A stretch of 64,000 bases of DNA from Shimia sp. Alg240-R146 (GTDB lineage: Bacteria; Pseudomonadota; Alphaproteobacteria; Rhodobacterales; Rhodobacteraceae): NCBI RefSeq assembly GCF_947331465.1, contig NZ_CAMZOK010000003.1, positions 558,001 to 622,000 on the forward strand, read 5' to 3'. Position 1 is the first letter of the stretch; each line of letters starts with the position of its first letter. The notes beneath the pieces were generated by a model. It did not search any database. It worked only from the letters and a program-made list of their open reading frames with translations, and was not told the DNA's origin. Of this stretch, positions 9,564-25,619 are shown one piece after another. A program made the translations under genes and the position numbers.

Positions 9564-9586
9564 CAAATCTTGAACTGCTGTGTCGC

Positions 9587-9952: not shown

Positions 9953-9966
9953 ATCTCAATCTCCTC

Positions 9967-10167
9967 TTAGCGATCGTAGGGCATGAAGCCCTTGACGATT
10001 TTTGCGTCGGGGGCGGACAGAGTAGTCGTGCCACGAGCGTTACGAATAAATTTGCGAGTGCGTTTGATCATGCCGTGGCGTTTACCCGCCTGGCCTGCCA
10101 AAACTTTGCCGGTCGCAGTGACCTTAAAGCGCTTTTTGGCGCTCGACTTCGTCTTCATCTTAGGCAT
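9967..10167 (-). CDS. rpmI: 50S ribosomal protein L35
   Basis: Small basic ribosomal protein of 66 residues ([20 protein letters not shown]), full length. First gene of a two-gene transcript with rplT, served by a clear promoter about 80 bases upstream. Confidence 0.99.
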
Positions 10168-10245
10168 TTCCGTCTCCTTTAGTATTCGGTCGGTGACAAA
10201 CGCGACTCGGCATGCCTTTCAGGCCGGTCGCGCGAATAGAGGCGC

Positions 10246-10274
10246 CGTATAGTCCGCCTTTTCTGACTCTGCAA
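10246..10274 (-). promoter_or_regulatory. Sigma-70-like promoter for rpmI-rplT
   Basis: On the minus strand TTGCAG (10269-10274) and TATACG (10246-10251) are separated by exactly 17 bases. It faces rpmI with a leader of about 70 bases, long enough for L20-type autoregulation, though no specific structure was identified. Confidence 0.7.
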
Positions 10275-10307
10275 GCGATTAATGCGGCTTTTTCCAGTGC
10301 CCGTTCG

Positions 10308-10535
10308 TCAGGAATGCATCATATAGGCAATCACGCGCACAATCACATTGGGCAACTCGGCAATCGAGTATCTGGACGGATCGAGAATCCACCCGGTCGC
10401 CAGAATCGATGCCGCCAGAATGAACGCCGCCATCGCCTTGGTCGGGCGCCGTTCATCGGCATAGCCAGACAACATTGCCGGTATGGAAAACAGCCCGATC
10501 AAGGCGCCGATCGCGATCAGATAGTCAGTGGTCAT
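10308..10535 (-). CDS. Small two-helix membrane protein of unknown function
   Basis: 75 residues with three hydrophobic stretches: 5-25 (LIAIGALIGLFSIPAMLSGY), about 33-50 and about 62-73. The segment YADERRPTKAMAAF between the first two would be a cytoplasmic positively charged loop. I recognise it as a type of small conserved protein frequent in Rhodobacterales, with no known role. It lies 38 bases downstream of pyk on the same strand and could be its last gene. Confidence 0.65.
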   Translation of the reverse strand: MTTDYLIAIGALIGLFSIPAMLSGYADERRPTKAMAAFILAASILATGWILDPSRYSIAELPNVIVRVIAYMMHS

Positions 10536-10572
10536 AGTATCGTATGGTTACCCCGGCTGGTCCGGGCACACG

Positions 10573-12018
10573 CTACTCTTCTTCCATGTTGAAAATCAAA
10601 CGCTCTTCACAAGGGGCCACACGCAGAATGTTTGTTGTGCCCGGCACGTTGAACGGAAGACCCGCTGTAACCACAATCTGATCATCGTTGGTGGCGTAGC
10701 CAAGATCCCGCGCGGCACGCGCCGAGGCCACAACCGCCATTTTGAACCGCGACACATCGGAGACGATCACACAGTTCGTGCCCCAGCTCAGCGCCAGCCG
10801 CCGCGACGTGCCCCGCAGGGACGTCATCGCGATGATCGGCACCCGTGGGCGCTCACGCGCAATCAACAATGCTGTGGTGCCGGACTGGCTAAAGCAACAG
10901 ATCGCGGCCACTTCGGTGGTTTCCGCGATTTCCCGCGCGGCTGACACGATGGCATCCGCCACGGTCGAGCGTGGTGCGCTACGGCTGGCTTCGATGATCT
11001 CGCGATAGGTCGGGTCGCTTTCCACCTCGACCGCCACGTCGTTCATCGTGGTCACTGCTTCGACCGGATACTGGCCGGCAGCTGATTCCGCTGACAACAT
11101 AATGGCGTCCGCGCCTTCGTAGATCGCGGTGGCCACGTCGCTCACCTCGGCTCGGGTCGGCATTGGGCTTTCGATCATGCTTTCCAACATCTGTGTGGCC
11201 ACGATCACCGGCTTGGCCGCCTGACGGCATTTGCGCACCAGACGTTTCTGGATCGGCGGCACCGCACTGACCGGCAGTTCCACACCCAGATCACCGCGCG
11301 CCACCATGATGCCGTCGCTGGCCTTCAGGATTTCGCCAAAGCTTTCGACTGCGGCAGGTTTTTCAATCTTGGACAGGATCGCCGCCCGCCCCTGCGCCAG
11401 CCCGCGCGCTTCTTCGACATCTTCTGGGCGCTGCACAAACGACAACGCCAGCCAATCAACGCCAAGACCGCACACAAACTCCAGGTCGTCACGGTCCTTT
11501 TCCGACAACGCCGCCAGCGGCAATACCACGTCGGGAACGTTCACGCCTTTGCGGTTGGAAATCGTCCCGCCAATTGTCACGCTGCAGTCCGCATAATCGT
11601 CCCCGCAAGCGTCCACTTTCAAACGGATCTTCCCGTCGTTGACCAGAAGGTTCGATCCCGCCTCCAGCGCGGCAAAAATTTCGGGGTGGGGCAAGCACAC
11701 GCGCGTGATGTCGCCCTCGGCTTCGTCCAGATCAAGCCGGAACTTCGCGCCTTCAACCAGCTCTTCCTCACCGTTGGCAAACACGCCAACACGCAACTTC
11801 GGCCCCTGAAGGTCCGCCAGAATGGCAATCGGGCTTTGCAGGTCTTTTTCGACCTGCCGGATAATACGGTGCTTTTCGCGGATTTCGTCATGACTGCCGT
11901 GACTCATGTTCAGACGGAAAACGTCCGCCCCGGCCTCGTGCAATCCACGGATCATGTCATAGGTTTCCGACGCTGGGCCCAGCGTCGCCACGATCTTTAC
12001 GTTTCTCAGTCGTCTCAT
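10573..12018 (-). CDS. pyk: Pyruvate kinase
   Basis: Converts phosphoenolpyruvate and ADP to pyruvate and ATP. 481 residues, full length. The family active-site signature is present (ILSKIEKPAAVESFGEI, then DGIMVARGDLGVELP), with the catalytic Lys in SKIEKP and the Mg-binding Glu/Asp. The C-terminal allosteric domain carries TALLIARERPRVPIIAMTS. The promoter contains a LacI-type palindrome (12091-12106), so control by a central-carbon regulator such as CceR/PckR is likely. The gene diverges from the N-formylglutamate amidohydrolase gene. Confidence 0.98.
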   Translation of the reverse strand: MRRLRNVKIVATLGPASETYDMIRGLHEAGADVFRLNMSHGSHDEIREKHRIIRQVEKDLQSPIAILADLQGPKLRVGVFANGEEELVEGAKFRLDLDEAEGDITRVCLPHPEIFAALEAGSNLLVNDGKIRLKVDACGDDYADCSVTIGGTISNRKGVNVPDVVLPLAALSEKDRDDLEFVCGLGVDWLALSFVQRPEDVEEARGLAQGRAAILSKIEKPAAVESFGEILKASDGIMVARGDLGVELPVSAVPPIQKRLVRKCRQAAKPVIVATQMLESMIESPMPTRAEVSDVATAIYEGADAIMLSAESAAGQYPVEAVTTMNDVAVEVESDPTYREIIEASRSAPRSTVADAIVSAAREIAETTEVAAICCFSQSGTTALLIARERPRVPIIAMTSLRGTSRRLALSWGTNCVIVSDVSRFKMAVVASARAARDLGYATNDDQIVVTAGLPFNVPGTTNILRVAPCEERLIFNMEEE

Positions 12019-12083
12019 AATGTCATCATCCCCGAACTGGCGTCTTACCCTTAGGTGACCCTGCTACATCGCTCTTGCCGACC

Positions 12084-12112
12084 CCGATACTTGTTAACGC
12101 TAACAAAAGCAA
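12084..12112 (-). promoter_or_regulatory. pyk promoter with embedded LacI-type operator
   Basis: On the minus strand TTGCTT (12107-12112) and TATCGG (12084-12089) are 17 bases apart. The spacer is almost entirely filled by the inverted repeat TTGTTA-N4-TAACAA (12091-12106) with a central CG, the hallmark of LacI/GalR-family sites. A repressor bound here would block RNA polymerase directly. Confidence 0.65.
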
Positions 12113-12179
12113 CATTCAGCGGCCGGATTTCCTTTCGAATTGAACTGGATTAGATGTGTATCAAACCAATGACAGGCCC

Positions 12180-12923
12180 ATGACAAACACATCTTTCTCC
12201 ATCTACGGCGCAGACCGTCCCGCCCGCTGGCTGATCACCTGTGATCATGCCTCCAATTCCGTGCCCGCCGATATCAATGGCGGCGATCTCGGCATTGGTG
12301 CGGACAACATGTCCCGCCACATCGCGTTTGACGTTGGCATCAAAGGCACCTCGCAACGCCTCGGAGAGCTGCTGGACGCGCCGGTGATCTGCTCCAACTT
12401 TTCCCGTCTGGTGATTGACCCCAACCGCGGCATGGATGATCCGACCTTGGTCATGCGCCTGTATGACGGCACCATCATTCCCGCCAATCGTCATGTGGAC
12501 GACCCCGAAATCGCCCGCCGCGTCGACACTCTTTATCGCCCCTATCATGAGGCGCTGGAAAGCCTTGCAGCCGCGCGGGACAACGTAATCGTTGTCGCCA
12601 TGCACAGCTTTTCCCCCAAACTCAACGGCCGCGCCCCGCGCCCGTGGGAAATCGGCATCCTCTATTCGCGCACCTTTCAAGACTTCAGCCACGCCCTGCT
12701 GGCCCGCCTGCGCCGCGAGACCGACCTGACCGTTGGCGAAAACGTGCCTTATGACGGCCATCTGCCAGGTGACAGCATCGACCAACACGCCCTGCGCCAA
12801 GGCCGCCTGAACACGCTTGTCGAGCTGCGCAACGACGAAATCGAAACGCCCGAAGGGCAAGCAGCATGGGCGGAACGCCTTGCGCCAATTCTGACCGAAG
12901 CGCTGGCGGAAAGCGGCTTATAA
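12180..12923 (+). CDS. N-formylglutamate amidohydrolase family protein
   Basis: 247 residues. Family members hydrolyse N-formyl-L-glutamate in the last step of one histidine degradation route; relatives act on other N-acyl amino acids. The N-terminal LITCDHASNSVP and the central VIVVAMHSFSP, with their conserved His and Asp residues, fit a zinc-dependent carboxypeptidase-like fold. I use the ATG at 12180 rather than the GTG eight codons earlier, which lacks a ribosome-binding site. No hut genes are nearby, so the substrate is open. It is divergent from pyk. Confidence 0.88.
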   Translation: MTNTSFSIYGADRPARWLITCDHASNSVPADINGGDLGIGADNMSRHIAFDVGIKGTSQRLGELLDAPVICSNFSRLVIDPNRGMDDPTLVMRLYDGTIIPANRHVDDPEIARRVDTLYRPYHEALESLAAARDNVIVVAMHSFSPKLNGRAPRPWEIGILYSRTFQDFSHALLARLRRETDLTVGENVPYDGHLPGDSIDQHALRQGRLNTLVELRNDEIETPEGQAAWAERLAPILTEALAESGL

Positions 12924-13007
12924 TCCTGCAAAATCAATGTCGTCTTTCTTGCCAACACAAGGTCAAATACCCATATATTTGGTGACCCTTTGGAAAGGAG
13001 ATCACTC

Positions 13008-13247
13008 ATGACAATCGCCACTCTTACTGCTTTCTTCGGCTGGATGACCGTAATCCATTTCGCGGTTCTGATCTTCGCCGCCGTGGTAATCTACGCGCTC
13101 GGCGACTGGGCCACAGGGCTTCACGCCCGCATGTTCGGCCTCAAACAAGAGGCCGCACGCCAGACCTTCTATAACTGGCTCGCCTTCTACAAACTTCTGA
13201 TCTTTGTTTTCGCCCTCGTACCGTGGCTCGCGCTCAAGATCATGTGA
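13008..13247 (+). CDS. Small membrane protein (DUF6868-like)
   Basis: 79 residues with a strong AAGGAG ribosome-binding site before the ATG. Two hydrophobic segments (about 12-32 and 58-77) flank an amphipathic middle (GDWATGLHARMFGLKQEAARQ) that is well conserved in this family of small inner-membrane proteins. Function unknown. It precedes the DUF1244 gene by 63 bases and may share a transcript with it. Confidence 0.75.
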   Translation: MTIATLTAFFGWMTVIHFAVLIFAAVVIYALGDWATGLHARMFGLKQEAARQTFYNWLAFYKLLIFVFALVPWLALKIM

Positions 13248-13310
13248 CGCCGCTTGCCCCCGCGCCGACGGATTGCTAGGCCTAAGCCAAGCCAGTCGCA
13301 GGAGGACCCC

Positions 13311-13625
13311 ATGGACAAGCAAACCCAGATCGAACTCGAAGCCGCCGCCTTCCGCACTCTGCGCGAGCATCTGATGGACAAGCGCACCGATGTGCAAAAC
13401 ATCGACATGATGAACCTCGCCGGGTTTTGCCGCAATTGCCTGTCGCGTTGGTATCAAGAGGCCGCAAACGCGCGCGGTATCGAGATGGACAAAAACCAAG
13501 CCCGTGAGATTTTCTACGGCATGACAATGGACGAATGGAAATCCACCTATCAAACCGACGCCAGCCCACAAAAGCAGGTCGAATTTGAGGTCGCTTTCAA
13601 AGAAAACGTCGGCGGAAAAGACTAA
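13311..13625 (+). CDS. DUF1244 family protein
   Basis: 104-residue soluble protein with the family core LAGFCRNCLSRWYQEAANAR and QAREIFYGMTMDEWK. The close Cys pair (FCRNC) could bind a metal or be redox active. The ATG at 13311 has a consensus AGGAGG six bases before it. The family is widespread in Alphaproteobacteria and has no assigned function. Confidence 0.9.
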   Translation: MDKQTQIELEAAAFRTLREHLMDKRTDVQNIDMMNLAGFCRNCLSRWYQEAANARGIEMDKNQAREIFYGMTMDEWKSTYQTDASPQKQVEFEVAFKENVGGKD

Positions 13626-13704
13626 TCAGCCAACACATTGCAGCCACATTTGCCGCAATTGTTTCCAATTTAGCTCCAATTTTCGGTAAATTTGGCCGGT
13701 AGGT

Positions 13705-13733
13705 CTGCCCCTAATTTCAGGCTTTAGGGGCAG
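13705..13733 (+). promoter_or_regulatory. Hairpin enclosing the RTX gene ribosome-binding site
   Basis: A perfect 10-bp stem, CTGCCCCTAA (13705-13714) pairing with TTAGGGGCAG (13724-13733), ends three bases before the ATG at 13737. The Shine-Dalgarno AGGGG is wholly inside the 3' arm. This would hide the start until the stem opens, as in an RNA thermometer or a translational switch. Confidence 0.65.
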
Positions 13734-13736
13734 AAA

Positions 13737-15398
13737 ATGATTGGCTTATTGGCACTTGCAACAGTGGTCGGCGGAAGCGTCTTGATTTCGACGCTCGAAG
13801 CTGAAGATGAGATTTCGTCCGCAACCGATACAGACGCCCCGGATCCCGATCCGGAAGATCTTCCTATTGCCGATGTGTCCGTACTGATTGACGGCACCAC
13901 CGCCGACGACACGCTTTCGGGCGGTGATGCAAACGACACCATCAACGGCGGCGGTGGCAACGATTGGATCCTCTCGGGCGGCGGCAACGACTCTGTCTCC
14001 GGCGGCGCTGATGATGACCGCATCGCCCTGGGTGGCGGCAGCGACATATACGGCGGTGACGGCGTGGACGAGTCCGGCAACGACACCGTGCGTGGCGGCA
14101 GCGGCAATGACTGGCTCTTTGACGTCACAGGCGCCGACACGCTTTTGGGTGGCCTGAACGAAGACACGTTGATCGGCGCGCAATCCGGCGTGCTGGATGA
14201 CGAGGCCGACCTGCTGGGCGGCGGCTATGGCGACGACGTAATTCTTGGTGACAATGGCGACACCATCAACGGCGGCGAAGGCGTGGACACCTTTGGCATC
14301 GGCTTTGAATTTGGCCAGGGCTTTGATGCGGTGACCATCACCGATTTTGAATCCACCACCGAGGCCCTGACCCTCGCGGTCACCGGTGACATCGTTCCCG
14401 GTTCGCTGGAATGGTCCGTCAGCCTTGACGAGGCCACCGGCATCGCCACCATCGACATTTGGGGCAACGAAGACACCGGCAGCGGCCCTGTCGCCCTGCC
14501 TCCCGAAACCGTTCTGATTTTGGAGAACATGGACGCGGCCAGCGTGGCTGCCCTCAACCTCCTGTTTGCCGACGATCTTTCCGAGGTGGAATCCGGCACT
14601 GCGCCCGAAACCACTGAAGTGGCTCTCACAGATGGCGCCGATACACACACCGGCACAGATGCCGATGAAACTGTGCATGGCGGTGCTGGTGACGACACAC
14701 TCTCTGGCGGCGCTGGTGACGACGTGATCACCGCAGGCGACGGCAACGACAGCGTTGACGGCGGCGAAGACGATGACCGCTTGGTTGCCGGCGATGGCAA
14801 CGACACCATTTCCGGCGGCGAAGGCGACGACACTGTGGTCGGCGGCGACGGCAACGACTTCTACGGCTATGACGGCGCAACCACCACTAACGAAGGCGGC
14901 GATGATCTTGTGCGCGGCGGTCAGGGCGATGACTGGCTGCAGGACGCCGAGGGCGCTGACACGCTCTATGGCGGCTTGGGCGACGACACGGTATCCGGTG
15001 CTGACGTTGATGTCTTTGATGCCGAGGCAGACTGGGTCAGCGGCGGCTACGGCAACGACGTTGTGGTGGGTGACAACGGCGACACGCTTGTCGGCGGAGA
15101 AGGTCATGATGAATTTGGTGTCGGCTTTGATTTCGGCGCAGGATATGACGCGGTGACCATCACCGATCTGGACGCTGAAAACGAAGCCATCACCATCGCA
15201 ATTTCCAGCGATGCGGCAGTGGACAACATGGATTGGTCCGTCAGCTTTGATGCGGCCACTGGCATTGCCACCATCGATATCTGGGGCACCGAAGACAGCG
15301 GCTCAGGCCCCGTAGCGGTTCCTGCTGAGACGGTGCTTGTTCTTGAAGGCATGACCGCTGAGGACGTTGCCGCCCTGTCAATCGCCTTCAGCTACTGA
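13737..15398 (+). CDS. RTX-type calcium-binding repeat protein, internally duplicated
   Basis: 553 residues, very acidic. After a short N-terminal hydrophobic segment (MIGLLALATVVGGSVLIS) that could be a membrane anchor, there are many GGxGxD-type nonapeptide repeats that form calcium-bound beta-rolls. The protein consists of two homologous halves (about 45-285 and 300-553): each has repeats, then a block such as GYGDDVILGDNGDTINGGEG, then a beta domain ending VLILENMDAASVAALNL or VLVLEGMTAEDVAALSI. RTX proteins are usually exported by type I secretion; no secretion genes are adjacent. Probably a surface or secreted structural protein. Translation may be gated by the hairpin just upstream. 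Confidence 0.9.
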   Translation: MIGLLALATVVGGSVLISTLEAEDEISSATDTDAPDPDPEDLPIADVSVLIDGTTADDTLSGGDANDTINGGGGNDWILSGGGNDSVSGGADDDRIALGGGSDIYGGDGVDESGNDTVRGGSGNDWLFDVTGADTLLGGLNEDTLIGAQSGVLDDEADLLGGGYGDDVILGDNGDTINGGEGVDTFGIGFEFGQGFDAVTITDFESTTEALTLAVTGDIVPGSLEWSVSLDEATGIATIDIWGNEDTGSGPVALPPETVLILENMDAASVAALNLLFADDLSEVESGTAPETTEVALTDGADTHTGTDADETVHGGAGDDTLSGGAGDDVITAGDGNDSVDGGEDDDRLVAGDGNDTISGGEGDDTVVGGDGNDFYGYDGATTTNEGGDDLVRGGQGDDWLQDAEGADTLYGGLGDDTVSGADVDVFDAEADWVSGGYGNDVVVGDNGDTLVGGEGHDEFGVGFDFGAGYDAVTITDLDAENEAITIAISSDAAVDNMDWSVSFDAATGIATIDIWGTEDSGSGPVAVPAETVLVLEGMTAEDVAALSIAFSY

Positions 15399-15447
15399 CA
15401 GACCCGCGACCCTGCGCAGCACGCGGCAGCGTTTGGCAAACTCAAAC

Positions 15448-15478
15448 AAAAAAGGCGGGGAACACCTCGCCTTTTTTG
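15448..15478. terminator. Bidirectional terminator between RTX gene and dat
   Basis: Stem GGCGGGG/CCTCGCC with loop AACA, flanked by an A run on the left and a T run on the right, so it can stop both converging transcripts. Confidence 0.88.
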
Positions 15479-15493
15479 CGTTTTCACAAAGCT

Positions 15494-16354
15494 TTAGATC
15501 GCCGCTTTCAGGCTCTCATCCAGATAGATCTCGCGCAGACGCGTCGCAATCGGCCCCGGAGTGCCTTCGCCCAGCGCCACACCGTCGATCTCCACCACCG
15601 GCATAACAAACGCACTGGCCGAGGTGGTAAACGCCTCATCCGCACCCTGCGCTTCTTCAATGGTGAACAGCCGCTCCTCGATCTTGAGCTGCGCCTCAGC
15701 CGCCATGCGCAACACAGCCTTGCGGGTGATCCCGTGCAGGATGTCGTTGGACAAAGGCCGCGTCACGATCACACCGTCTTTGACGAAATAGGCGTTGTTG
15801 GACGTGCCCTCGGTCACATGGCCATCCTCAACCAGCCACGCATCATCGCAGCCCGCTTTCTTGGCCATCATCTTGCCCATCGACGGATAGAGCAGCTGCA
15901 CCGTCTTGATGTCACGTCGACCCCAACGGATGTCCTCAATCGAAATGATCTTTGCACCCTTCTTGGCCGCAGGGCTGTCCGCCAGACCCGGCTTGTTCTG
16001 CGTGAACAACACAATCGACGGCGGTGTGTCCTCAGACGGGAACACAAAGTCCCGGTCGCCATCGCTGCCGCGTGTGACCTGCAGATACACCAGCCCCTCA
16101 ACGATGCCGTTGTCCGCGACCAGCTTGCGATGGATCGCCAACAACTCGTCTTTGGTGCATGGCTCTGCCATCTCCAATTCATCAAGCGAGCGTTTCAGGC
16201 GCACTGCGTGACCTTCGAAATCAATCAGCTTACCGTCCAGCACAGACGTCACCTCATAGACCGCGTCCGCCATCAGGAAGCCCCTGTCGAAAATCGAAAT
16301 CTTGGCGTCTTCTTCCGGCAGGTACTCGCCATTGACATAAACGGTGCGGCTCAT
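15494..16354 (-). CDS. dat: D-amino acid aminotransferase
   Basis: PLP enzyme of fold type IV, 286 residues, normal length for D-amino acid transaminases. It moves the amino group from D-amino acids to 2-oxoglutarate, producing D-glutamate. The PLP-binding lysine is K150 in GRRDIKTVQLL and the cofactor-binding Glu is in VTEGTSNNAYF (E182). The N-terminal DRGFLMADAVYEVTSV is typical of this group. It is the last gene of a leftward run with a cysteine hydrolase, dgcA and dgcN. Its expected product D-glutamate is the substrate of DgcN, so the gene order makes biochemical sense. Branched-chain aminotransferase relatives share the fold, but the context favours the D-specific enzyme. Confidence 0.9.
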   Translation of the reverse strand: MSRTVYVNGEYLPEEDAKISIFDRGFLMADAVYEVTSVLDGKLIDFEGHAVRLKRSLDELEMAEPCTKDELLAIHRKLVADNGIVEGLVYLQVTRGSDGDRDFVFPSEDTPPSIVLFTQNKPGLADSPAAKKGAKIISIEDIRWGRRDIKTVQLLYPSMGKMMAKKAGCDDAWLVEDGHVTEGTSNNAYFVKDGVIVTRPLSNDILHGITRKAVLRMAAEAQLKIEERLFTIEEAQGADEAFTTSASAFVMPVVEIDGVALGEGTPGPIATRLREIYLDESLKAAI

Positions 16355-16396
16355 CTGATCATCCTTCCTGTCTCAATTGCCCTTGATGTGCGGTAT

Positions 16397-17029
16397 TCAC
16401 ACGGATTTCGCAACGGCTTTCATTGCCGCAACAGTTTCATCCAACCCGCGCCGCGCGCCGGTCTGTAGATATTCCATCGCCACCAGCGACGCCTCATGGG
16501 CGGTCTCACTTGACCCACCAACACAGTCCTCGATCACACGGCAAAAATAATCGTGCTGATGCCCGTCGACGAATGTGTAGTGCACGCAAACATCTGTCAG
16601 CCCGCCAACCATCAGCAACGTGTCGACCTTGAGCCCCTTCAACAGAATCTCAAAATCAGTCCCAAAGAACGCTGAATACCGCCGTTTCGGCACCACATAG
16701 TCCGTTGGCAAAACCCCCATCTGCTCCACTGCCAACGCGGTGTTGGGGTTGTCCTCAAGACAATGCACGTCTTCTTGCCCGTCCAGTTCGCGGCCAAAAT
16801 CCACCAGATCGGGACGGTGTACCTCTTGGATAAAAATCACCGGAATATCGCTGGCGCGCGCCGCATCAATCGCGGTGCGTGCTGCCAACATCCGATCGGC
16901 ATAGCCCGGCATATTGTCAATCGATCGCACTTCGCTGAAGTCGCGAAACGTGCTGGCCTGAATGTCGATCACAATCAGCGCTGCGCGCCCCTCAATCAGC
17001 TCGCGTTTGTTTGCTGCTGCGTTGGCCAT
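16397..17029 (-). CDS. Cysteine hydrolase of the isochorismatase superfamily
   Basis: 210 residues. The catalytic Asp-Lys-Cys triad of the family is intact: D22 (VIDIQ), K115 (VVPKRRYSAF) and C148 (LTDVCVHYT). The superfamily includes nicotinamidase, N-carbamoylsarcosine amidase and related amide hydrolases. The gene sits between dgcA and dat (18 and 42 bases to each), so it is almost certainly co-transcribed with them. N-acetyl-L-glutamate, the expected product of DgcA, must be deacetylated to give glutamate, and this enzyme could do that; that assignment is inference. A role on another small amide is possible. Confidence 0.88.
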   Translation of the reverse strand: MANAAANKRELIEGRAALIVIDIQASTFRDFSEVRSIDNMPGYADRMLAARTAIDAARASDIPVIFIQEVHRPDLVDFGRELDGQEDVHCLEDNPNTALAVEQMGVLPTDYVVPKRRYSAFFGTDFEILLKGLKVDTLLMVGGLTDVCVHYTFVDGHQHDYFCRVIEDCVGGSSETAHEASLVAMEYLQTGARRGLDETVAAMKAVAKSV

Positions 17030-17047
17030 ATCCGTCTCCCCAAAAAT

Positions 17048-18010
17048 TTAACCCCAAAGGGCTGCACTCGGAGGATGTACTCCCATGTCGTCAAACACCA
17101 AAGGCGTGTCGCGATCTTCCGCCAACAAAAGCGGCCCATCCAGATCTGTGACCATTGCCCCCTGCGCCACCAGCGTCGCGGGCGCCATCGCCAACGAACT
17201 GCCAACCATACAGCCGACCATGACCTTGTAGCCCTCGGCTAAAGCCGCTTCACGCAGTTTGAGCGCCTCAGTCAGCCCGCCTGTTTTGTCGAGCTTGATA
17301 TTCACCACATCGTACTTGCCCTTCAGCTTGGACAACGTCGAACAATCATGCGCGCTCTCATCAGCACAAACTGGCACCGGCCGCTCCATCCCGATCAAGG
17401 CATCGTCATCTCCCGCAGGCAACGGCTGCTCCACAAGCGCCACGCCAAGCCGCACCAGATGCGGTGCAAGATCGGCATAAACCTCGGCAGACCACCCCTC
17501 ATTGGCATCCACAATGATCGTCGACTTTGGCGCACCGGCGCGCACCGCCTCAAGCCGTGCCATGTCATCCGGCGTGCCCAACTTGATCTTCAACAAAGGG
17601 CGAAACGCGTTTTTGGCCGCTTGCGCCTGCATCTCGGCAGGCTCCGCCAACGACAGTGTATATGCGGTAACTTCGGGCTTTGGTGCAGGCAACCCAGCAA
17701 GCTCCCACGCCCGCTTTCCGGCTTTCTTGCACTCCAGATCCCAAAGCGCACAATCCAGCGCATTGCGCGCAGCGCCTGCAGGCAGGGTATACAGCCCGGC
17801 CCTTGTGACTGGGCCTTTGACACTTTCGATCAAGTCCGTAACGTTTTCTAACGTCTCGCCATAGCGCGCATAGGGCACGCATTCACCCCAACCGACATGC
17901 CCCTCATCCTCAACTTTCACGGTCAAAACCTTCGCCTCGGTCCGCGAACCGCGCGAAATGGTGAACACCTGCGCCAGCTTGAACACATCTCTCTCAACGG
18001 TGATCTGCAT
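17048..18010 (-). CDS. dgcA: N-acetyl-D-glutamate racemase (dipeptide-epimerase-like)
   Basis: 320-residue member of the enolase superfamily, muconate lactonising/dipeptide epimerase branch. The two catalytic lysines are visible as the KxK at K141-K143 (LLKIKLG) and K239 (VVNIKLDKTGG); metal ligands are D168 (IVDANEGW), E194 (LVEQPLP) and D217 (CADES). Proteins like this next to DgcN have been described as N-acetyl-glutamate racemases in the marine DgcN-DgcA D-glutamate pathway (established knowledge). An L-Ala-D/L-Glu dipeptide epimerase is the alternative, but the neighbouring dgcN argues for the first. Start ATG 18010. Confidence 0.86.
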   Translation of the reverse strand: MQITVERDVFKLAQVFTISRGSRTEAKVLTVKVEDEGHVGWGECVPYARYGETLENVTDLIESVKGPVTRAGLYTLPAGAARNALDCALWDLECKKAGKRAWELAGLPAPKPEVTAYTLSLAEPAEMQAQAAKNAFRPLLKIKLGTPDDMARLEAVRAGAPKSTIIVDANEGWSAEVYADLAPHLVRLGVALVEQPLPAGDDDALIGMERPVPVCADESAHDCSTLSKLKGKYDVVNIKLDKTGGLTEALKLREAALAEGYKVMVGCMVGSSLAMAPATLVAQGAMVTDLDGPLLLAEDRDTPLVFDDMGVHPPSAALWG

Positions 18011-18024
18011 GCGCCCGCTCCTTC

Positions 18025-18090
18025 TTTCTGGCCCTAAATACCCTGAGGGTAAGGTCCGGCACGGCCGGACCGAGGGGGCAAAGCCCCCTT
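18025..18090. repeat. Double hairpin between dgcN and dgcA
   Basis: A perfect hairpin GGTCCGGC-ACG-GCCGGACC (18053-18071) is followed directly by GGGGGC-AAA-GCCCCC (18074-18088). Together with the tttctggccctaaatac block it resembles the element at 3428-3484. In a transcript crossing from dgcN to dgcA it could attenuate or stabilise the message. Confidence 0.6.
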
Positions 18091-18097
18091 GATTGCT

Positions 18098-19099
18098 TTA
18101 CACCGCCGCAAGCGCATCCACCAGCTTGGCTGCCCCAAACCGGAACGGATCGGTTGCGGGCAAGCCCATGTCTGCTTCGACCTGCGCCAAATAAGCTTTG
18201 GCCTCATCCTCACCCATGTTCTGGGTGTTCACTGACACGCCAATCACCTGACACCCAGGATTGGCCACCTTCGCCAAGGGCAAAGCCATATCGCGCAGCG
18301 CTTGCAACGACGGCAAATCGTATTCTGGCAAGCCGCGCATGTGCGTGCGTGTCGGCTCATGCGCCAGAACAAGCGCGTCCGGTTGCCCGCCATGAATAAG
18401 CGCCATCGTCACACCGGAATACGACACATGGAACAAGCTGCCCTGCCCCTCGATGTGGTCCCAGTGATCCGCGTCATTGTCAGGCGTCAGGTATTCCACC
18501 GAACCCGCCATGAAATCCGCAATCACTGCATCCAGCGGCACGCCATCTCCGGTGATCAGAATGCCGGTTTGACCTGTGGCGCGGAACGACGACTTCATGC
18601 CGCGCTTGCGCATCTCCGCATCCATGCAAAGCGCCGTGTACATCTTGCCAACCGAGCAATCCGTCCCCACGGCCAGCACCCGCTTGCCTGTGCGCGTCTT
18701 GCCGTTGGCAATCGGATACTCAACCTCGGGAATGCGCACATCGTGCAACTCACGCCCTGTCGCCTCGGCCACAGCCACCAAGTCCGGCTCCTCGCGCAGC
18801 AGGTTGTGCAGGCCAGAGGCCAGATCAAAGCCCTCTTCCAGTGCCATAACCAGCACCTTTTTCCATTCTTTGGAAATCACGCCACCGCGGTTGGCCACGC
18901 CAATCACCAGCGTCTTGGCGCCCGCTTCACGCGCTTCAACAAGGCTCATGTCGGTCAGCCCGAGATCGGCCTTACAGCCGTCCATCCGGAACTGCCCCAC
19001 AGCGTTTTCCGGACGCCAGTCCTTGATGCCAATCGCCACCTTGGCGGCCAGCTGATCCGGCGCATCGCCCAGAAACAAAAGATACGGTGTTTTGATCAT
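18098..19099 (-). CDS. dgcN: D-glutamate N-acetyltransferase DgcN (DUF1611 family)
   Basis: 333 residues. DUF1611-type protein with a P-loop-like motif at about 145-152 (AVGTDCSVGKMYTAL) and a C-terminal domain containing QPDALVLAHEP. In marine bacteria DgcN acetylates D-glutamate to N-acetyl-D-glutamate as the first step of a D-glutamate catabolic route. The adjacent dgcA, cysteine hydrolase and D-amino acid aminotransferase genes support that reading. It is the first gene of the run and diverges from mcl1 across about 300 bases. Older annotations call this family an NAD-dependent epimerase or EBNA-1-like protein. Confidence 0.87.
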   Translation of the reverse strand: MIKTPYLLFLGDAPDQLAAKVAIGIKDWRPENAVGQFRMDGCKADLGLTDMSLVEAREAGAKTLVIGVANRGGVISKEWKKVLVMALEEGFDLASGLHNLLREEPDLVAVAEATGRELHDVRIPEVEYPIANGKTRTGKRVLAVGTDCSVGKMYTALCMDAEMRKRGMKSSFRATGQTGILITGDGVPLDAVIADFMAGSVEYLTPDNDADHWDHIEGQGSLFHVSYSGVTMALIHGGQPDALVLAHEPTRTHMRGLPEYDLPSLQALRDMALPLAKVANPGCQVIGVSVNTQNMGEDEAKAYLAQVEADMGLPATDPFRFGAAKLVDALAAV

Positions 19100-19201
19100 C
19101 GCGCGATCCTTTCAGTCATCCCCAAGTCAATCTTGTTGACCTATATTTGCCCACGCATCGCGCAAATTCCTTGTGAACCTCCTGCCAAATCCACACTGGG
19201 T

Positions 19202-19214
19202 CGAAGATTCTTCG
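19202..19214. promoter_or_regulatory. Palindrome in the dgcN-mcl1 divergent region
   Basis: CGAAGA-T-TCTTCG is a 13-base inverted repeat about 100 bases upstream of dgcN. A second one, CGGGA-TTTTC-TCCCG, lies at 19232-19246. Either may be an operator; no local regulator gene is obvious. Confidence 0.35.
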
Positions 19215-19395
19215 ATTATTTCATCCCCAATCGGGATTTTCTCCCGCAATCTTTATGAAACCCTCCGAATCTCCCGAAACCCCGCCGCAACGCAGCGTAT
19301 TATGCCGCAGGCGCGAAAATTGCCTTGCGATCACCAGCGCAACTTCCTAACACTTCACGCAAGCCAGACGTAATTTCCTTACCGAGAGACCTGAC

Positions 19396-20355
19396 ATGAG
19401 CTTCCGCATCCAACCCGCCGCTCCGGCCCGCCCCAACCGCTGCCAACTGTTTGGCCCCGCGTCCAACACCAAGCTCTTTGCCAAGATGGCCGTCTCTGCG
19501 GCTGATGTGATCAACATCGACCTCGAAGATTCCGTTGCGCCTTCGGACAAAGACATTGCCCGCGCCAACGCCATTGAAGCCATCAACACCATCGATTGGG
19601 GCAAGAAAACCCTGTCCGTGCGCATCAACGGTCTGGACACGCCTTACTGGTACCGCGACGTGGTCGATCTGCTGGAACAGGCCGGCGAGCGTCTTGACCA
19701 GATCATGATCCCCAAGGTGGGCTGTGCCGAAGACATCTACGCCGTCGACGCCCTCGTGACCGCCATTGAGGCCGCCAAGGGCCGCAGCAAACGCATCGCC
19801 TTTGAGGTCATCATCGAATCCGCCGCCGGCATCGCCCACGTCGAAGCCATCGCCGCCGCCTCCCCCCGCCTTGAGGCCATGAGCCTGGGTGCTGCCGACT
19901 TCGCGGCCTCTATGGGCATGCAAACCACCGGCATCGGTGGCACGCAGGAAAACTACTACATGGTCCGCGAAGGTGAGAAACACTGGTCCGATCCGTGGCA
20001 CTGGGCGCAAGCCGCCATCGTCGCCGCCTGTCGTACCCACGGTGTGCTGCCGGTTGACGGCCCGTTTGGCGACTTCTCAGACGACGAAGGCTACATCGCA
20101 CAGGCCAAACGCTCGGCCACTTTGGGCATGGTCGGCAAATGGGCCATCCACCCCAAACAGATCGCGCTGGCCAATGAGGTCTTCACCCCGTCCGAGGAAG
20201 CGGTCAACGAAGCCCGCGAAATTCTCGCGGCGATGGAGCAGGCCAAAGCCAACGGTGAAGGCGCCACGGTTTACAAAGGCCGCCTTGTCGATATCGCGTC
20301 TATTAAGCAGGCCGAGGTGATTGTGGCGCAGGCTGAACTGATCGCGGCGAGCTGA
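19396..20355 (+). CDS. mcl1: L-malyl-CoA/beta-methylmalyl-CoA lyase
   Basis: 319 residues, CitE-like fold. Mcl1 cleaves beta-methylmalyl-CoA and L-malyl-CoA to glyoxylate plus propionyl-CoA or acetyl-CoA in the ethylmalonyl-CoA pathway, the usual route of C2 assimilation in Rhodobacterales lacking isocitrate lyase. Motifs include INIDLEDSVAPSDK (about 40-52) and IAFEVIIESAAGIAHVEA, with the Mg-binding Glu and Asp. The gene is intact and ends at a terminator. The last 46 codons exist again, diverged, at 21436-21576, beyond an inserted AT-rich gene. Confidence 0.95.
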   Translation: MSFRIQPAAPARPNRCQLFGPASNTKLFAKMAVSAADVINIDLEDSVAPSDKDIARANAIEAINTIDWGKKTLSVRINGLDTPYWYRDVVDLLEQAGERLDQIMIPKVGCAEDIYAVDALVTAIEAAKGRSKRIAFEVIIESAAGIAHVEAIAAASPRLEAMSLGAADFAASMGMQTTGIGGTQENYYMVREGEKHWSDPWHWAQAAIVAACRTHGVLPVDGPFGDFSDDEGYIAQAKRSATLGMVGKWAIHPKQIALANEVFTPSEEAVNEAREILAAMEQAKANGEGATVYKGRLVDIASIKQAEVIVAQAELIAAS

Positions 20356-20376
20356 GTGCTCACAAATGATGACGAC

Positions 20377-20404
20377 AAAAGGGGCCTCCATGGCCCCTTT
20401 CTTT
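20377..20404 (+). terminator. Terminator of mcl1
   Basis: Perfect stem AAAGGGGCC/GGCCCCTTT with loop TCCAT, followed by CTTT. A degenerate copy of the same structure follows the duplicated mcl1 end (21598-21625). Confidence 0.88.
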
Positions 20405-20724
20405 ATGCCAAAGCAAAGCTTTGGCAGCGCCCCGTTGACCGGCAGGGGCTTGCGCTGCAAGCTACCGAGAGGTGAAACGCCTCCACGGGGCGGGCGCTAC
20501 GCTTCCAGCCCCTCGGTTCGGACGCCGTGGCTCCTCAGACTTTGCCCGCTGTGAGCAGGAAGTGGCTTAAACCATACCGGAAACTGGCCATACTTTGGGT
20601 CGAAGCTCCAACCGATCCTGTTCGAGGCCGATGATTAAGAAACATTTTGATAATTTCAGGTTGCGATATATCCAGTGAACGCAATTACTGGGCGAAAAGA
20701 GACATTGGGCGTGGAGGAAATCGA
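20405..20724. other. Intergenic stretch left of the inserted gene
   Basis: About 320 bases between the mcl1 terminator and the orphan gene. The left part is GC-rich and host-like; from about 20590 the DNA becomes AT-rich. The change of composition probably marks one junction of the foreign segment. No gene seen. Confidence 0.5.
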
Positions 20725-21435
20725 GTGGGTGCATTGCAGATACTAGTATTGGCTTTTTCGGCTTGGGGAATGTCTTTGCAAGGCGTTGATTTGCATCGAG
20801 CTGCGTGGGAGTTGGAAATTGGTGTGGATATCGTTTCGCGCGCTGTTGAGGAACGCCTGCTGCACGATGTGAGCGACGATGAAAATGGGCCTTCTTCTAA
20901 TTGCGTTTCTGCAAAGGATTTCATTAATGCGTCCGGTGAAATCCAGAACTGGGACAGTTTCGTTCCTTGTACTGACGCAGATGATTTTTTCTTTTACGGC
21001 ATCGGCAGGGATTTAAATCTGATAGTTCTGCATCCTGGCGAAGTCGTCGTCGAAGATTATTTTGTAATCTACAAACGCTATTTAAGCTTGAAAGAAGAAT
21101 ACAATATTGGACCTATGGAGGCGGGAGATCCCGGTTTTCTTGTTTTGGGGCTTGCAGCCGCTGCGTCTATTGACGATGCGGAAAAGAAGAATTTGTACGA
21201 GGCGTATTCGCTTCACCAATTAATTGTTTTGCACGCGCAAGAAATTGATCAGTCATGGCTTAGGGGAGAGACAGCTGCAAATCTGTTTTATGGGTACTTC
21301 GGCGATGCGCTTTCACCATCCGGGATCGATACTTTCGGACAACTTGTTTGCGTCGTGAAGTACGACGTACTAGGATTGTCGGTGAGCGAAATCATGGCGT
21401 CGAAAGCTTTCACCAATTGCGTCAATAACCTCTAA
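20725..21435 (+). CDS. AT-rich orphan protein, possibly secreted
   Basis: 236 residues, not recognised. I choose the GTG at 20725 because GGAGG lies seven bases before it; the frame is open further upstream to a TTG but without a ribosome-binding site. The N-terminus (GALQILVLAFSAWGMSLQG) is hydrophobic and could be a signal peptide. The rest is acidic with scattered Cys residues (SSNCVSA, FVPCTDAD, QLVCVVK, TNCVNNL). Its codon use and base composition are much more AT-rich than its neighbours, and it is flanked by two copies of the mcl1 3' end, so it was probably acquired by horizontal transfer. Confidence 0.6.
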   Translation: MGALQILVLAFSAWGMSLQGVDLHRAAWELEIGVDIVSRAVEERLLHDVSDDENGPSSNCVSAKDFINASGEIQNWDSFVPCTDADDFFFYGIGRDLNLIVLHPGEVVVEDYFVIYKRYLSLKEEYNIGPMEAGDPGFLVLGLAAAASIDDAEKKNLYEAYSLHQLIVLHAQEIDQSWLRGETAANLFYGYFGDALSPSGIDTFGQLVCVVKYDVLGLSVSEIMASKAFTNCVNNL

Positions 21436-21576
21436 AGCGAAATCCTCGCCGCCATGAAACAGACCAAGGCCAACGGCGAAGGCGCCACGGTCTACAAAAG
21501 CCGCCTTGTCGATATCGCGTCTATTAAGCAGGCCGAAGTGGTCGTCGCCCAAGCCGAGCTGATCGCCGCGGGCTAA
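21436..21576 (+). pseudogene. Duplicated 3' end of mcl1
   Basis: These 141 bases encode the last 46 residues of Mcl1 again (LAAMKQTKANGEGATVYKSR onward, to the stop) with only a few substitutions: Glu-Gln-Ala to Lys-Gln-Thr, KGR to KSR, VIVAQ to VVVAQ. A degenerate copy of the mcl1 terminator follows. It has no start and is fused directly behind the stop codon of the orphan gene. It is probably the original chromosomal end, displaced when incoming DNA carrying its own mcl1 end recombined. Confidence 0.85.
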
Positions 21577-21728
21577 ACACCCAAAGACACCGATGACAAA
21601 AAGGTGTCTCCACGGTCCCCTTTTTTGCACAAGGGCCAGCGCCGGACCGGGGACGGCGCAACACCCCACCGGCTTGGCACTTTATCTCTGCCACTTGTCG
21701 CCAGACGTTCCCGTTTCGCACATCTTAA

Positions 21729-21764
21729 GAAAAAGCGCCGGCCCATGGGACCAGTCCGGCGCTG
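21729..21764 (-). terminator. Terminator of the lrp-type regulator gene
   Basis: Perfect 8-bp stem AGCGCCGG/CCGGCGCT (21734-21741 and 21756-21763); on the minus strand it is followed by TTTTTC. Confidence 0.8.
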
Positions 21765-21803
21765 GCCCGGCGACCTACGGCCTTGACTCCGGGCTCAATC
21801 TCC

Positions 21804-22256
21804 TTAGGCCCGCTCATCCTTGGGCGAGCCCATCACCACATAACTGGTGATCGCATGTACCTGCTCCACTGTGCCCAAAACCTCGGTGTGAAAGCGTTTG
21901 TAGGATGGCAGATCCGCCGCTTCCACGCGCAGCAGGTATTCTACCTGACCGGTGATATTGTGGCACTCCCGCACCTCAGGTGCCTGCGCCATGGCCCGCT
22001 CAAAAGCCTCCTGCGCGTGTTTGGTGTGTTGATTGAGCCCCACCGTGACGTAAGCCACGAATCCCGTGCCCAAAGCGGCACGGTTCAGCACCGCGCGATA
22101 GCCTGAGATCACGCCGGTCTTCTCCAACGCAGCCACCCTGCGCAAACAGGCTGACGGCGACAGCCCAACCTTGTCTGCCAGCGCCAGATTGCTGATCCGC
22201 CCATCGCGGCTCAACTCGCGCAATATATGTTCGTCAATGTGATCAAGATCCGCCAT
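21804..22256 (-). CDS. Lrp/AsnC family transcriptional regulator
   Basis: 150 residues. An N-terminal winged helix-turn-helix (LDHIDEHILRELSRDGRISNLALADKVGLSPSACLRR) is followed by a RAM ligand-binding domain. The start MADLDHIDEH at 22256 matches the family. It is divergent from a LysE-type exporter with about 55-70 bases between, the standard layout of an amino-acid-sensing regulator controlling an exporter. Confidence 0.93.
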   Translation of the reverse strand: MADLDHIDEHILRELSRDGRISNLALADKVGLSPSACLRRVAALEKTGVISGYRAVLNRAALGTGFVAYVTVGLNQHTKHAQEAFERAMAQAPEVRECHNITGQVEYLLRVEAADLPSYKRFHTEVLGTVEQVHAITSYVVMGSPKDERA

Positions 22257-22328
22257 TAATTGCAAAAATAGATGACATGCGCACAAATACGCAACCCGCA
22301 AGCGCCCATAATGCCTCAAACTGCGCCC

Positions 22329-22925
22329 ATGACTTACGACATCCTCGCCGCCCTCACCTTATTTGCCTTTGTGTCCTCGATCACGCCGGGGCCAAACAAT
22401 CTGATGCTTATGGCCTCAGGTGCCAATTTTGGCTTTGCCCGCTCTATTCCCCACATGCTGGGCATCGGCGTTGGCTTTGTGGTGATGGTTGTGCTGGTGG
22501 GCGTCGGCCTGATGCAACTGTTTGACTATGTCCCTGTGCTGCACACCATCCTGAAGATCGCCTCGGTGGCCTACCTGCTATGGCTGGCGTGGAAAATCGC
22601 CCACGCAGGCGCACCGCAAAACGGCAGCAAAAGCGGCACGCCGATGACGTTTCTTCAGGCCGCGCTGTTCCAATGGGTCAATCCCAAAGCATGGACCATG
22701 GCGCTCACGGCGGTAACGCTTTATGCGCCCGATCGCAGCTTGTGGGCCGTTCTGTCTGTCGCCGCGGTGTTTGGCGCCATCAACCTGCCCTGCGTCAGCA
22801 GCTGGACCGTCTTGGGACAGCAAATGCGCCGTCTGCTGACATCGCCAACCCGCCTGACCACCTTCAACTGGACCATGGCAGCCCTGCTGGTGGTCTCGCT
22901 TTATCCAGTGCTTGTCACCGGCTGA
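22329..22925 (+). CDS. LysE/RhtB family amino acid exporter
   Basis: 198 residues with about six membrane segments and the family motif SSITPGPNNLMLMASGANFG near the N-terminus. Such proteins export amino acids or related compounds using the proton gradient. The start MTYDILAALT matches the family; an alternative ATG at 22311 would add six residues. Probably controlled by the divergent Lrp-type regulator. Its 3' end overlaps the convergent GyrI-like gene by 25 bases. Confidence 0.9.
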   Translation: MTYDILAALTLFAFVSSITPGPNNLMLMASGANFGFARSIPHMLGIGVGFVVMVVLVGVGLMQLFDYVPVLHTILKIASVAYLLWLAWKIAHAGAPQNGSKSGTPMTFLQAALFQWVNPKAWTMALTAVTLYAPDRSLWAVLSVAAVFGAINLPCVSSWTVLGQQMRRLLTSPTRLTTFNWTMAALLVVSLYPVLVTG

Positions 22926-23533
22926 CGCAAAATCGTGCGCAGCTTTTCTGGCGCCACACGGCGGGGATCGCCAAGGTAAATCTCGTGGTGGTGACCGTTA
23001 AACGTCATCCCTGCCTCAGGCATCACAACATCATGCAGATGCGCCAGCACCGGCGCCTCGTCTGAATATGGCCCGACATGCAGCGTCTGAAAACAATCGC
23101 CTTCCTCCAGCGTCTTTAGGGACACCTCCGCCAGCGCCGAGGTTTCCGCGCCCTTCTTGGCCAGCTTCACCTGCGCCGCCTCACGCGCAGTGTCCAAATC
23201 GGTCTTCGTCACAGCCTCCGGTATCCGGATCATCGCGCTCCAGCGCCATGCATCGCGCTCGGCCCGCACAAAACTGCCGGGATCATCCGCCCACCACAGC
23301 GCCTCCAGCGGCGGCACCACAAAATCCGCGTCCTGCGCCTTCTGAGCAAACTTGATACCATAGGCCAACGGATAAAGCGCCCCAAGAGCGCGGGCATAGA
23401 CCGGTCCGCCAGGATCGCCCTGTCCGGTGATGCTCAAAAACTGAAGCTTGGGAAACACAACGCGATCCCAGCGACCGACCTTGCCGCTGTAATACGGCTT
23501 GTCCGCCTTCTTGAAATCCAGCTTCCCGCTCAT
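22901..23533 (-). CDS. GyrI-like small-molecule-binding protein
   Basis: 210 residues of the stand-alone GyrI-like (SHS2/SOUL-like) family, with VVFPKLQFLSITGQGDPGG near the start and the C-terminal MTFNGHHHEIYLGDPRR. Family members bind amphipathic or drug-like small molecules, and some have hydrolase activity. The start ATG overlaps the stop of the upstream AraC-type regulator (ATGA), so the two are translationally coupled. Confidence 0.85.
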   Translation of the reverse strand: MSGKLDFKKADKPYYSGKVGRWDRVVFPKLQFLSITGQGDPGGPVYARALGALYPLAYGIKFAQKAQDADFVVPPLEALWWADDPGSFVRAERDAWRWSAMIRIPEAVTKTDLDTAREAAQVKLAKKGAETSALAEVSLKTLEEGDCFQTLHVGPYSDEAPVLAHLHDVVMPEAGMTFNGHHHEIYLGDPRRVAPEKLRTILRQPVTSTG

Positions 23534-24381
23534 GCCGTTGCCTCTGCTCTGTCTGCAAGCGGCAGGCAAATCTCTGTCAGCAGATCTTCGCGCGGCGTTT
23601 CCATCGGGTTGTTAAGGTACATCTCAAAACACGGCGCATCACCGGGCATCTCACCGGACTCCGGCAGCCATTTGCCAAACAACGCCTCATAAGCCTGCGG
23701 AATCAACTCGTAAGGCCCCCGCAGTGTCAAAACCGCATACCGACCACCGGCAACTGCATAGCCCTCAAGCCCCTCCGGCACATCGTCCAGCCGCAGCTCC
23801 GCGCCAGCCATTGACCGCAAATCCGCCTCTGGCGCGGCCTCGGGGTTGTCGAAATAGATCCCCACCGGATTGCCAATCCGCGGCCACAGGTTGTTTTTCT
23901 GGCAGGTGGCAAAGAACGCCTCAAACGCGGCGCCAATCTGGCTATAGGCCCCCTTGTGCACCACGCCCGCAATCACCCGCGGCGCCTCGTCTCTGATCGT
24001 GACTGGAAACATTGGACCTTCTCCCTGTTTGCGTGTCATCAGCGGCGCAACGTGTACGCCCTGTTTTCTGAACTGCGCGGGACTTGCGCCGTATTGGCTG
24101 GCAAATGCCCGTCCGAAGCTGCGCGGATTGTCGTATCCCACAGCCCGCGAAATTTCTTCCGGCCGCGTGTCTTCCAACAAAAGCAGGCATGCCGCTTTGT
24201 GCAGCCGCACCCGCCGCACGGCTTGCGCACAGGTTTCGCCGGTCATGGCATGAAACACCCGATGCCAGTGAAACCGGCTCATTGCGGCCTCATCGGCCAG
24301 CCGATCCAGCGACATGTCGCTCGCCGGATTATCATGGATATAGCGCAGCACCCGTATCAACCGCTTTTCATAATTGGCCAC
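23530..24381 (-). CDS. AraC family regulator with GyrI-like effector domain
   Basis: 283 residues. An N-terminal AraC helix-turn-helix pair (LDRLADEAAMSRFHWHRVFH, then EISRAVGYDNPRSFGRAFAS) is followed by a GyrI-like effector-binding domain (about 115-280), the arrangement of Rob/SbmC-type drug-responsive regulators. The start is a GTG at 24381 (MANYEKRLIRVL); upstream codons in the longer frame do not look like the family. It probably senses an amphipathic compound and controls its own transcript with the downstream GyrI-like protein. Confidence 0.88.
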   Translation of the reverse strand: MANYEKRLIRVLRYIHDNPASDMSLDRLADEAAMSRFHWHRVFHAMTGETCAQAVRRVRLHKAACLLLLEDTRPEEISRAVGYDNPRSFGRAFASQYGASPAQFRKQGVHVAPLMTRKQGEGPMFPVTIRDEAPRVIAGVVHKGAYSQIGAAFEAFFATCQKNNLWPRIGNPVGIYFDNPEAAPEADLRSMAGAELRLDDVPEGLEGYAVAGGRYAVLTLRGPYELIPQAYEALFGKWLPESGEMPGDAPCFEMYLNNPMETPREDLLTEICLPLADRAEATA

Positions 24382-24539
24382 AGACCGCTCCGTTTTCGCT
24401 CTCGCCACCACTCTGCCACAGCCCCAACGCACAAATCTTGCTGAATTTGCCAGCGGCGGGCACACTGCCACAGACGTTGCAATTCCGTCAGGTCAGCGTC
24501 ATATAGCGGGCACAGGGCAAGACCGCCAAAGAGGATGCG

Positions 24540-25502
24540 ATGACCAATTATCTCGACTTCGAAAAACCCCTCGCGGAGATTGAAGGCAAAGCCGAAGAGT
24601 TGCGCGCACTGGCGCGGACAAACGAAGAAATGGACGTGGCTGACGAAGCCGCGGCACTTGATCGCAAAGCAGCCGACCTGCTTGACGAGCTTTACAAAGA
24701 CCTCACGCCTTGGCGCAAATGCCAAGTCGCCCGCCACCCCGAACGGCCGCACACCCGCGACTATGTCAAGGCGCTCTTCACCGAATTCACACCGCTCGCA
24801 GGGGATCGCAACTTTGCCGACGACCTCGCGGTTACGGGTGGCCTTGCGCGTTTTAATGACCAACCGGTGATGGTGATCGGCCATGAAAAAGGCCACGACA
24901 CCAAATCCCGCATTGCCCATAACTTTGGCATGGCGCGCCCCGAGGGCTATCGCAAAGCCGTGCGCCTTTTGGACATGGCCGACCGTTTCAATCTGCCGGT
25001 GATCTCGCTGGTGGACACCACCGGCGCCTACCCCGGAAAAGGGGCGGAAGAACGCGGCCAGTCCGAGGCCATCGCGCGTTCGACCGAGGCCTGCCTGAAC
25101 ATCGGCGTGCCGCTGGTGTCGGTGATCATCGGCGAAGGCGGCTCCGGCGGCGCCGTGGCATTCGCCACCGCCAACCGCGTCGCGATGCTGGAACATTCCG
25201 TCTATTCGGTGATCTCACCCGAAGGCTGTGCGTCTATCTTGTGGAAAGACGCCGAGAAAATGCGCGAAGCTGCCGAAGCCCTGCGCCTGACCGCGCAGGA
25301 TCTCAAGAAACTGGGCGTGGCGGACCGCATCATCGAAGAACCCAAAGGTGGCGCACATCGCGACGCCGAAGCTGCGATCGACAGCGTGAAGGCGGCAATC
25401 ACCGCAATGCTCAAGGAGCTGAGCAAGAAAGACCGCAAACAGCTGATTGCGGATCGCCGCAAAAAGTTCCTCGATGTGGGCAAAAAAGGCCTCGCAGCCT
25501 AA
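24540..25502 (+). CDS. accA: Acetyl-CoA carboxylase carboxyltransferase subunit alpha
   Basis: 320 residues, full length. Transfers the carboxyl group from biotin-BCCP to acetyl-CoA, forming malonyl-CoA for fatty acid synthesis, in complex with AccD. Typical segments are [14 protein letters not shown] at the N-terminus, [13 protein letters not shown] and [16 protein letters not shown], the oxyanion-forming Gly-Gly region. It is followed by a strong terminator and stands as a single gene. Confidence 0.98.
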
Positions 25503-25529
25503 GCGACGCTCAACGCAACGCAAAACAGG

Positions 25530-25556: not shown

Positions 25557-25619
25557 TTTCCGAGAGCAGGAGATGCCTGTTCTGAGCCCCCAGCGTACGC
25601 AGCCCCGAGCGGTTCATTC

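Follow-up and report, generated by a model that had tools for sequence, protein, structure and literature searches.

We report that a leftward operon of Shimia sp. Alg240-R146, carried on a stretch of 64,000 nucleotides (hereafter the window; positions 558,001 to 622,000 of contig NZ_CAMZOK010000003.1), combines three genes that stand together across Rhodobacterales, dgcN, dgcA and dat, with a sporadic fourth gene encoding an isochorismatase-like cysteine hydrolase. On balance we consider it probable that dgcN-dgcA-dat represents the known D-glutamate route in its Rhodobacterales form, with deacetylation left to housekeeping enzymes, and that the hydrolase is a dispensable passenger from a guanidine-related family. 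Specifically, we infer that in this strain the D-amino-acid transaminase (DAT) would move amino groups from D-amino acids onto 2-oxoglutarate to give D-glutamate, DgcN would acetylate D-glutamate, and DgcA would invert the acetylated product to N-acetyl-L-glutamate, which would then pass to a housekeeping enzyme of the ArgE/M20 deacetylase class or into the arginine pathway. The most likely substrate of the hydrolase would be a small guanidine-related compound rich in nitrogen, either an amide or a carbamoyl compound, and the gene would sit between dgcA and dat without being a fixed member of the route.

Read in this way, the operon consists of a conserved unit with which a common marine order recycles D-amino acids and, apart from it, a passenger gene. 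A lead for the deacetylation step is weakened, and a new testable one is gained: a family of hydrolases to which no function has been assigned and whose genes are often preceded by guanidine riboswitches. What guanidine does in biology had been elusive until recently, according to a passage of a review (PMC12186494), and an amidohydrolase that is tied to a riboswitch and neighbours a probable guanidinium exporter could identify an enzyme by which such compounds are produced or removed.

Conservation of the dgcN-dgcA-dat unit

The operon consists of the following genes, in window coordinates and in the order of transcription:

18098..19099, minus strand: dgcN, D-glutamate N-acetyltransferase family, 333 amino acids (NF041892, 554.1 bits, cut-off 480)
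17048..18010, minus strand: dgcA, N-acetyl-D-glutamate racemase family, 320 amino acids (NF042940, 488.3 bits, cut-off 400)
16397..17029, minus strand: isochorismatase-like cysteine hydrolase, the sporadic member, 210 amino acids (PF00857, 142 bits, cut-off 27)
15494..16354, minus strand: dat, D-amino-acid transaminase family, 286 amino acids (NF005209, 378.8 bits, cut-off 320)

The open reading frame (ORF) coordinates place all four genes on the same strand, separated by 87 bases (dgcN/dgcA), 18 bases (dgcA/hydrolase) and 42 bases (hydrolase/dat), and so agree with the four-gene leftward run described in the original prediction, which had been made from the DNA letters alone. The closest PDB sequences are 7xrj for DgcN (E 2.3e-181), 4gfi for DgcA and 9pxs, a D-alanine aminotransferase, for DAT; against TIGR01121 the DAT scored 236.1 bits, which is below the cut-off of that model (277.45).

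In a survey of 195 Rhodobacterales genomes (the order survey) a DgcN match was present in 166, with 160 above the cut-off. From the score-ordered listing of these 166 genomes, and hence not at random, 100 dgcN-containing stretches, each 9-17 kb long, were taken from other members of the order, second DgcN copies being left out, and searched with the proteins of the window. Same-strand dgcN-dgcA-dat was found in 99 of the 100 stretches: dgcA lies directly downstream of dgcN in 99, and dat is the next same-strand member of the set after dgcA in 99. In the sole exception, L094, the search beside dgcN yielded neither dgcA nor dat. The hydrolase gene was found in none of the 100, four congeners included. 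The predicted conservation of gene order thus stands for dgcN, dgcA and the transaminase gene, which do form one unit, and fails for the hydrolase; the unit conserved across the order is dgcN-dgcA-dat and not the four-gene arrangement. In 77 of the stretches dgcN has a divergent CoA-lyase-like neighbour.

Outside the order, 31 of the 34 genomes with a DgcN match were fetched (32 loci; the three left out were weak). Here dgcA is directly downstream of dgcN in 29 of the 32 loci and dat follows dgcA in just one, and dat in this position is therefore mainly a trait of Rhodobacterales. The DgcN-DgcA D-glutamate pathway was reportedly defined by Yu et al. in 2023. The window resembles it in that its dgcN and dgcA orthologues score above the curated cut-offs, are adjacent and have the same order, and departs from it in the transaminase gene that Rhodobacterales add after dgcA (99/100 compared to 1/32 outside the order). 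A Rhodobacteraceae strain annotated with DgcN, DgcA and DAT grows on D-glutamate, D-alanine and other substrates, according to the portion of the report consulted (PMC11747546).

Occurrence of the hydrolase gene between dgcA and dat

The hydrolase is sporadic at every level sampled. It was detected at E 1e-20 in 25 of the 195 order genomes (undetected in 170), at E 1e-40 in 35 of 394 genomes of a family sample, and in 3 of the 299 genomes sampled across the phylum, each of which belongs to the family of the window. None of the 284 non-Rhodobacterales genomes of the phylum sample had it at E 1e-40; 34 of them match DgcN. A contig scan gave 120 hydrolase loci, of which 80 named ones (66-83% identical) were kept; these belong to Alpha- and Gammaproteobacteria, Acidimicrobiia and one Kiritimatiellota. 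Among all hydrolase loci gathered, several represent one genome reached twice; 12 pairs carry identical hydrolases. The subfamily is one of mostly marine isochorismatase-like amidohydrolases.

One loss is directly visible. In the congener G108 (L035), which keeps dgcN, dgcA and dat, both ends of the hydrolase gene are contiguous in the dgcA-dat slot, the matching blocks overlapping by 18 nucleotides, and no other copy was found in this genome at E 1e-20. The slot thus holds a deletion stump of the hydrolase gene. It is the only one with a remnant among the ten dgcA-dat gaps in which remnants were sought.

The arrangement dgcN-dgcA-hydrolase-dat does recur in four other genomes: in three of the 80 hydrolase loci, L159 (Roseovarius aestuarii), L183 (Tateyamaria sp.) and L202 (Rhodobacteraceae EL129), and in L239 (from G486). 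This recurrence, together with the place of the gene inside the operon, favours the view of the original prediction, namely that the hydrolase is an N-acetyl-L-glutamate deacylase completing the DAT-DgcN-DgcA route in one operon. DgcN is likewise present in 24 of the 25 hydrolase carriers of the order, an association that is not significant (p 0.13), and outside the order a full-length DgcN occurs in 21 of 40 carriers (17 over the cut-off), as compared to DgcN over the cut-off in 29 of the 284 phylum-sample genomes, lineage and habitat being uncontrolled in this comparison. Against it stand the absence of the hydrolase from all 100 fetched operons and from the order genomes in which it went undetected, its deletion in the congener, its absence from the non-Rhodobacterales genomes even where DgcN is matched, the presence of other deacetylases in the genome, and the nearest solved relatives, which, judged by their PDB titles, act on primary amides or carbamoyl compounds. 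Moreover, the orthologues are linked to guanidine-II riboswitches and SMR genes (see below), and because relatives so often stand behind a guanidine-sensing RNA the hydrolase is probably not the acetyl-removing step. We regard this role as very improbable, and the proposal that the hydrolase is the missing deacylase is not supported.

In 99 loci the dgcA-dat gap measures 15 nucleotides at the median, and in 16 of them it is longer than 200 nucleotides. Unrelated same-strand ORFs lie in it in L033, L034, L036, L037, L058, L063, L073, L075, L088, L110 and L117, and resemble, as named by eye, IlvD, a metallophosphoesterase, an exonuclease, DUF421, methyltransferase-like proteins and others. The wide gaps with their varied contents would suit a hydrolase with some other role that came to lie between dgcA and dat by accident, in a gap that tolerates insertions. 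This appears rather unlikely to us: a subfamily as rare in the phylum as this one nevertheless turns up in the same slot of five operons that form no clade, and the riboswitch linkage argues against an entirely unknown role.

Guanidine-II riboswitches, SMR genes and the putative hydrolase substrate

The hydrolase reaches no NCBIfam equivalog cut-off; its best model is biuret amidohydrolase (63.1 against 370), and the RutB equivalog is also failed (56.6 against 377.95). Asp22, Lys115 and Cys148, which we take from knowledge of the family to be the catalytic triad, are conserved at 99-100% in 115 homologues, in line with the intact triad noted in the original prediction. An AlphaFold2 model (pLDDT 91.4) has maleamate amidases as its best PDB folds (Foldseek E 1.9e-13) and also matches biuret and triuret hydrolases, nicotinamidases and RutB, the listed matches being 20-28% identical. 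With these isochorismatase-like hydrolases the protein shares the fold, PF00857 and the conserved Asp/Lys/Cys, and an HRPDL-containing stretch aligns with biuret hydrolase 6xjm; it differs in its own conserved GRELDG..D(V)HC stretch, in the low identity and in matching no equivalog. Guanylurea hydrolase belongs to the same superfamily, according to the part of the source consulted (PMC9800807). Four conserved acidic residues (77, 81, 83 and 86) might suit a cationic substrate. The near-invariant core is common to operon-borne and other copies among the 115 homologues. Residues special to the operon-borne copies were sought and rejected, as the 13 positions that differ in frequency all lie outside this core.

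Guanidine-II riboswitches (RF01068) were found beside the hydrolase gene at the Rfam threshold in 18 of 72 loci searched. One batch of 9 loci had been chosen for its SMR gene; the counts per batch are 5/9 (this batch), 8/20, 1/14, 4/10, 0/10 and 0/9. The riboswitch is upstream of the hydrolase in L185, L189, L195, L197, L206, L142, L242, L140, L145 and L181 (the last labelled as a Rhizobiaceae-group genome) and further in L205, L209, L212 and L213, and divergent in L240. A scan for paired ACGR-loop hairpins gave matches in 26 of 126 stretches upstream of the hydrolase, whereas the opposite strand of these stretches and 4.18 Mb of control sequence yielded 2 each; 21 of the 26 are distinct because of the 12 locus pairs with identical hydrolases, and in seven loci the motif lies 16-88 nucleotides directly before the hydrolase itself. 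Searches of 54 genomes, 51 of them hydrolase carriers, gave 17 riboswitch matches in 15 genomes. Twelve of these matches lie 33-395 nucleotides from the hydrolase; 11 are upstream and share its strand, the other is divergent, and 8 of the 12 exceed the gathering score. The congener G001 has the motif, then an SMR gene, then the hydrolase; its riboswitch, at 30.1, stays below the gathering score of 32.

An SMR gene lies at most 700 nucleotides from the hydrolase in 23 of the 126 loci, 20 times upstream on the same strand and 3 times divergent, and the SMR cluster is the most frequent neighbour (11 of the 80 loci, in 10 of which it immediately precedes the hydrolase on its strand). The second-commonest cluster, short-chain-dehydrogenase-like as named by eye, occurs in 10 loci at scattered positions. 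The one SMR neighbour compared with protein models has SugE as its best model, at 71.3 bits and below the cut-off of 126. The linkage resembles the guanidine-II regulon with its SMR/Gdx exporters, in that hydrolase orthologues follow RF01068 and are often separated from it by an SMR gene, and differs from it in that the copy of the window is without a riboswitch. A SugE-family Gdx protein exports guanylurea, as stated in part of the source (PMC9800807). The portion consulted of the review names a carboxylase, a deaminase, allophanate hydrolase, guanidinase and exporters, and no isochorismatase-type enzyme (PMC12186494). No paper joining guanidine, riboswitch and isochorismatase or cysteine hydrolase was found in a search with most subscription journals outside its reach. 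Tentatively, and with somewhat less assurance than an even chance would give, we suggest that the hydrolase is a hitherto unrecognised guanidine-regulon enzyme, the orthologues of which, in Rhodobacterales of marine origin and in at least one genome of the Rhizobiaceae group, would be under guanidine-II riboswitch control and partnered by SMR/Gdx proteins, would act on a guanidinium amide or carbamoyl compound resembling guanylurea, and would have entered the D-amino-acid operon repeatedly or been kept by few lineages.

A different connection to the route would exist if the hydrolase were a feeder that supplies DgcN with D-glutamate by removing the amide from D-glutamine or D-isoglutamine, with peptidoglycan as one conceivable source of these. 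Its fold family does act on primary amides (maleamate amidase, nicotinamidase), and the arrangement recurs in five operons; the riboswitch and SMR linkage of the orthologues, however, points to guanidine, the hydrolase is absent from nearly all dgc operons, and no residues of the conserved core distinguish the operon-borne copies. We consider a feeder decidedly unlikely.

Several observations weigh against the reading favoured here, that of a conserved three-gene route with a guanidine-family passenger. The five hydrolase-bearing operons, that of the window included, are not one clade in a tree of DgcA and DAT (104 rows; approximately unbiased test, p 2.5e-7), and a hydrolase in one slot of five such operons suggests more than a chance passenger. 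No motif was found in 100 of the 126 hydrolase loci. Rfam gave no riboswitch match in positions 9000-26000 of the window, and no riboswitch was found in its genome or in G486 under strict filters, nor in L159, L183 and L202. In the hydrolase tree (115 rows) most riboswitch-linked copies lie outside the part that holds the operon-borne copies. To these are added the frequency of DgcN among carriers outside the order, given above, and, with respect to housekeeping deacetylation, the rejection of ArgE as an obligate partner of DgcN, which is present in 8 of the 13 order genomes without ArgE. Since a single clade of operon-borne hydrolases was not rejected (p 0.664; the tree constrained to that clade scores higher), repeated capture is unproved; the pattern could stem from repeated capture, from transfer of parts of the operon or from many losses of an ancient gene.

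Deacetylation candidates and neighbouring genes

ArgE-type enzymes would accept N-acetylglutamate and are candidates for the deacetylation step. The genome of the window has 13 M20-family matches, and two of the eight M20 proteins scanned exceed the acetylornithine deacetylase (ArgE-class) cut-off of TIGR01892; ArgJ and three PF05013 matches are also present. The ArgE class was found in 182 of the 195 order genomes, and because eight DgcN-bearing genomes are without it (G024, G030, G051, G060, G063, G084, G137 and G156) no single deacetylase is obligate. Outside the order, a conserved deacylase beside dgcN was also considered and rejected, as an inspection by eye, made without Pfam searches of the clusters, singled out none of the neighbours that the 32 loci have in common.

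Two genes near pyk in the window are often found downstream of dat in relatives:

12156-12923, plus strand: PF05013 (N-formylglutamate amidohydrolase-like) gene
13305-13625, plus strand: DUF1244 gene

The former is a candidate spare deacylase. PF05013-like genes occur in 49 of the 100 fetched stretches, and with the window counted 49 of 50 such stretches also have pyk or DUF1244; a further 22 have DUF1244 and pyk without PF05013. Owing to this co-occurrence with genes that also stand without it, the PF05013 gene is taken as part of the neighbourhood.

Adjoining dat, at 13737-15398 on the plus strand, is a gene for an RTX-type calcium-binding repeat protein (PF00353). On the other side of the operon a fragment of 59 codons (approximately 21394-21570, plus strand) shows 73% identity to a portion of the CoA-lyase gene at 19396-20355 and is a partial duplication of it; an ORF at 20647-21435 overlaps the space between the two.

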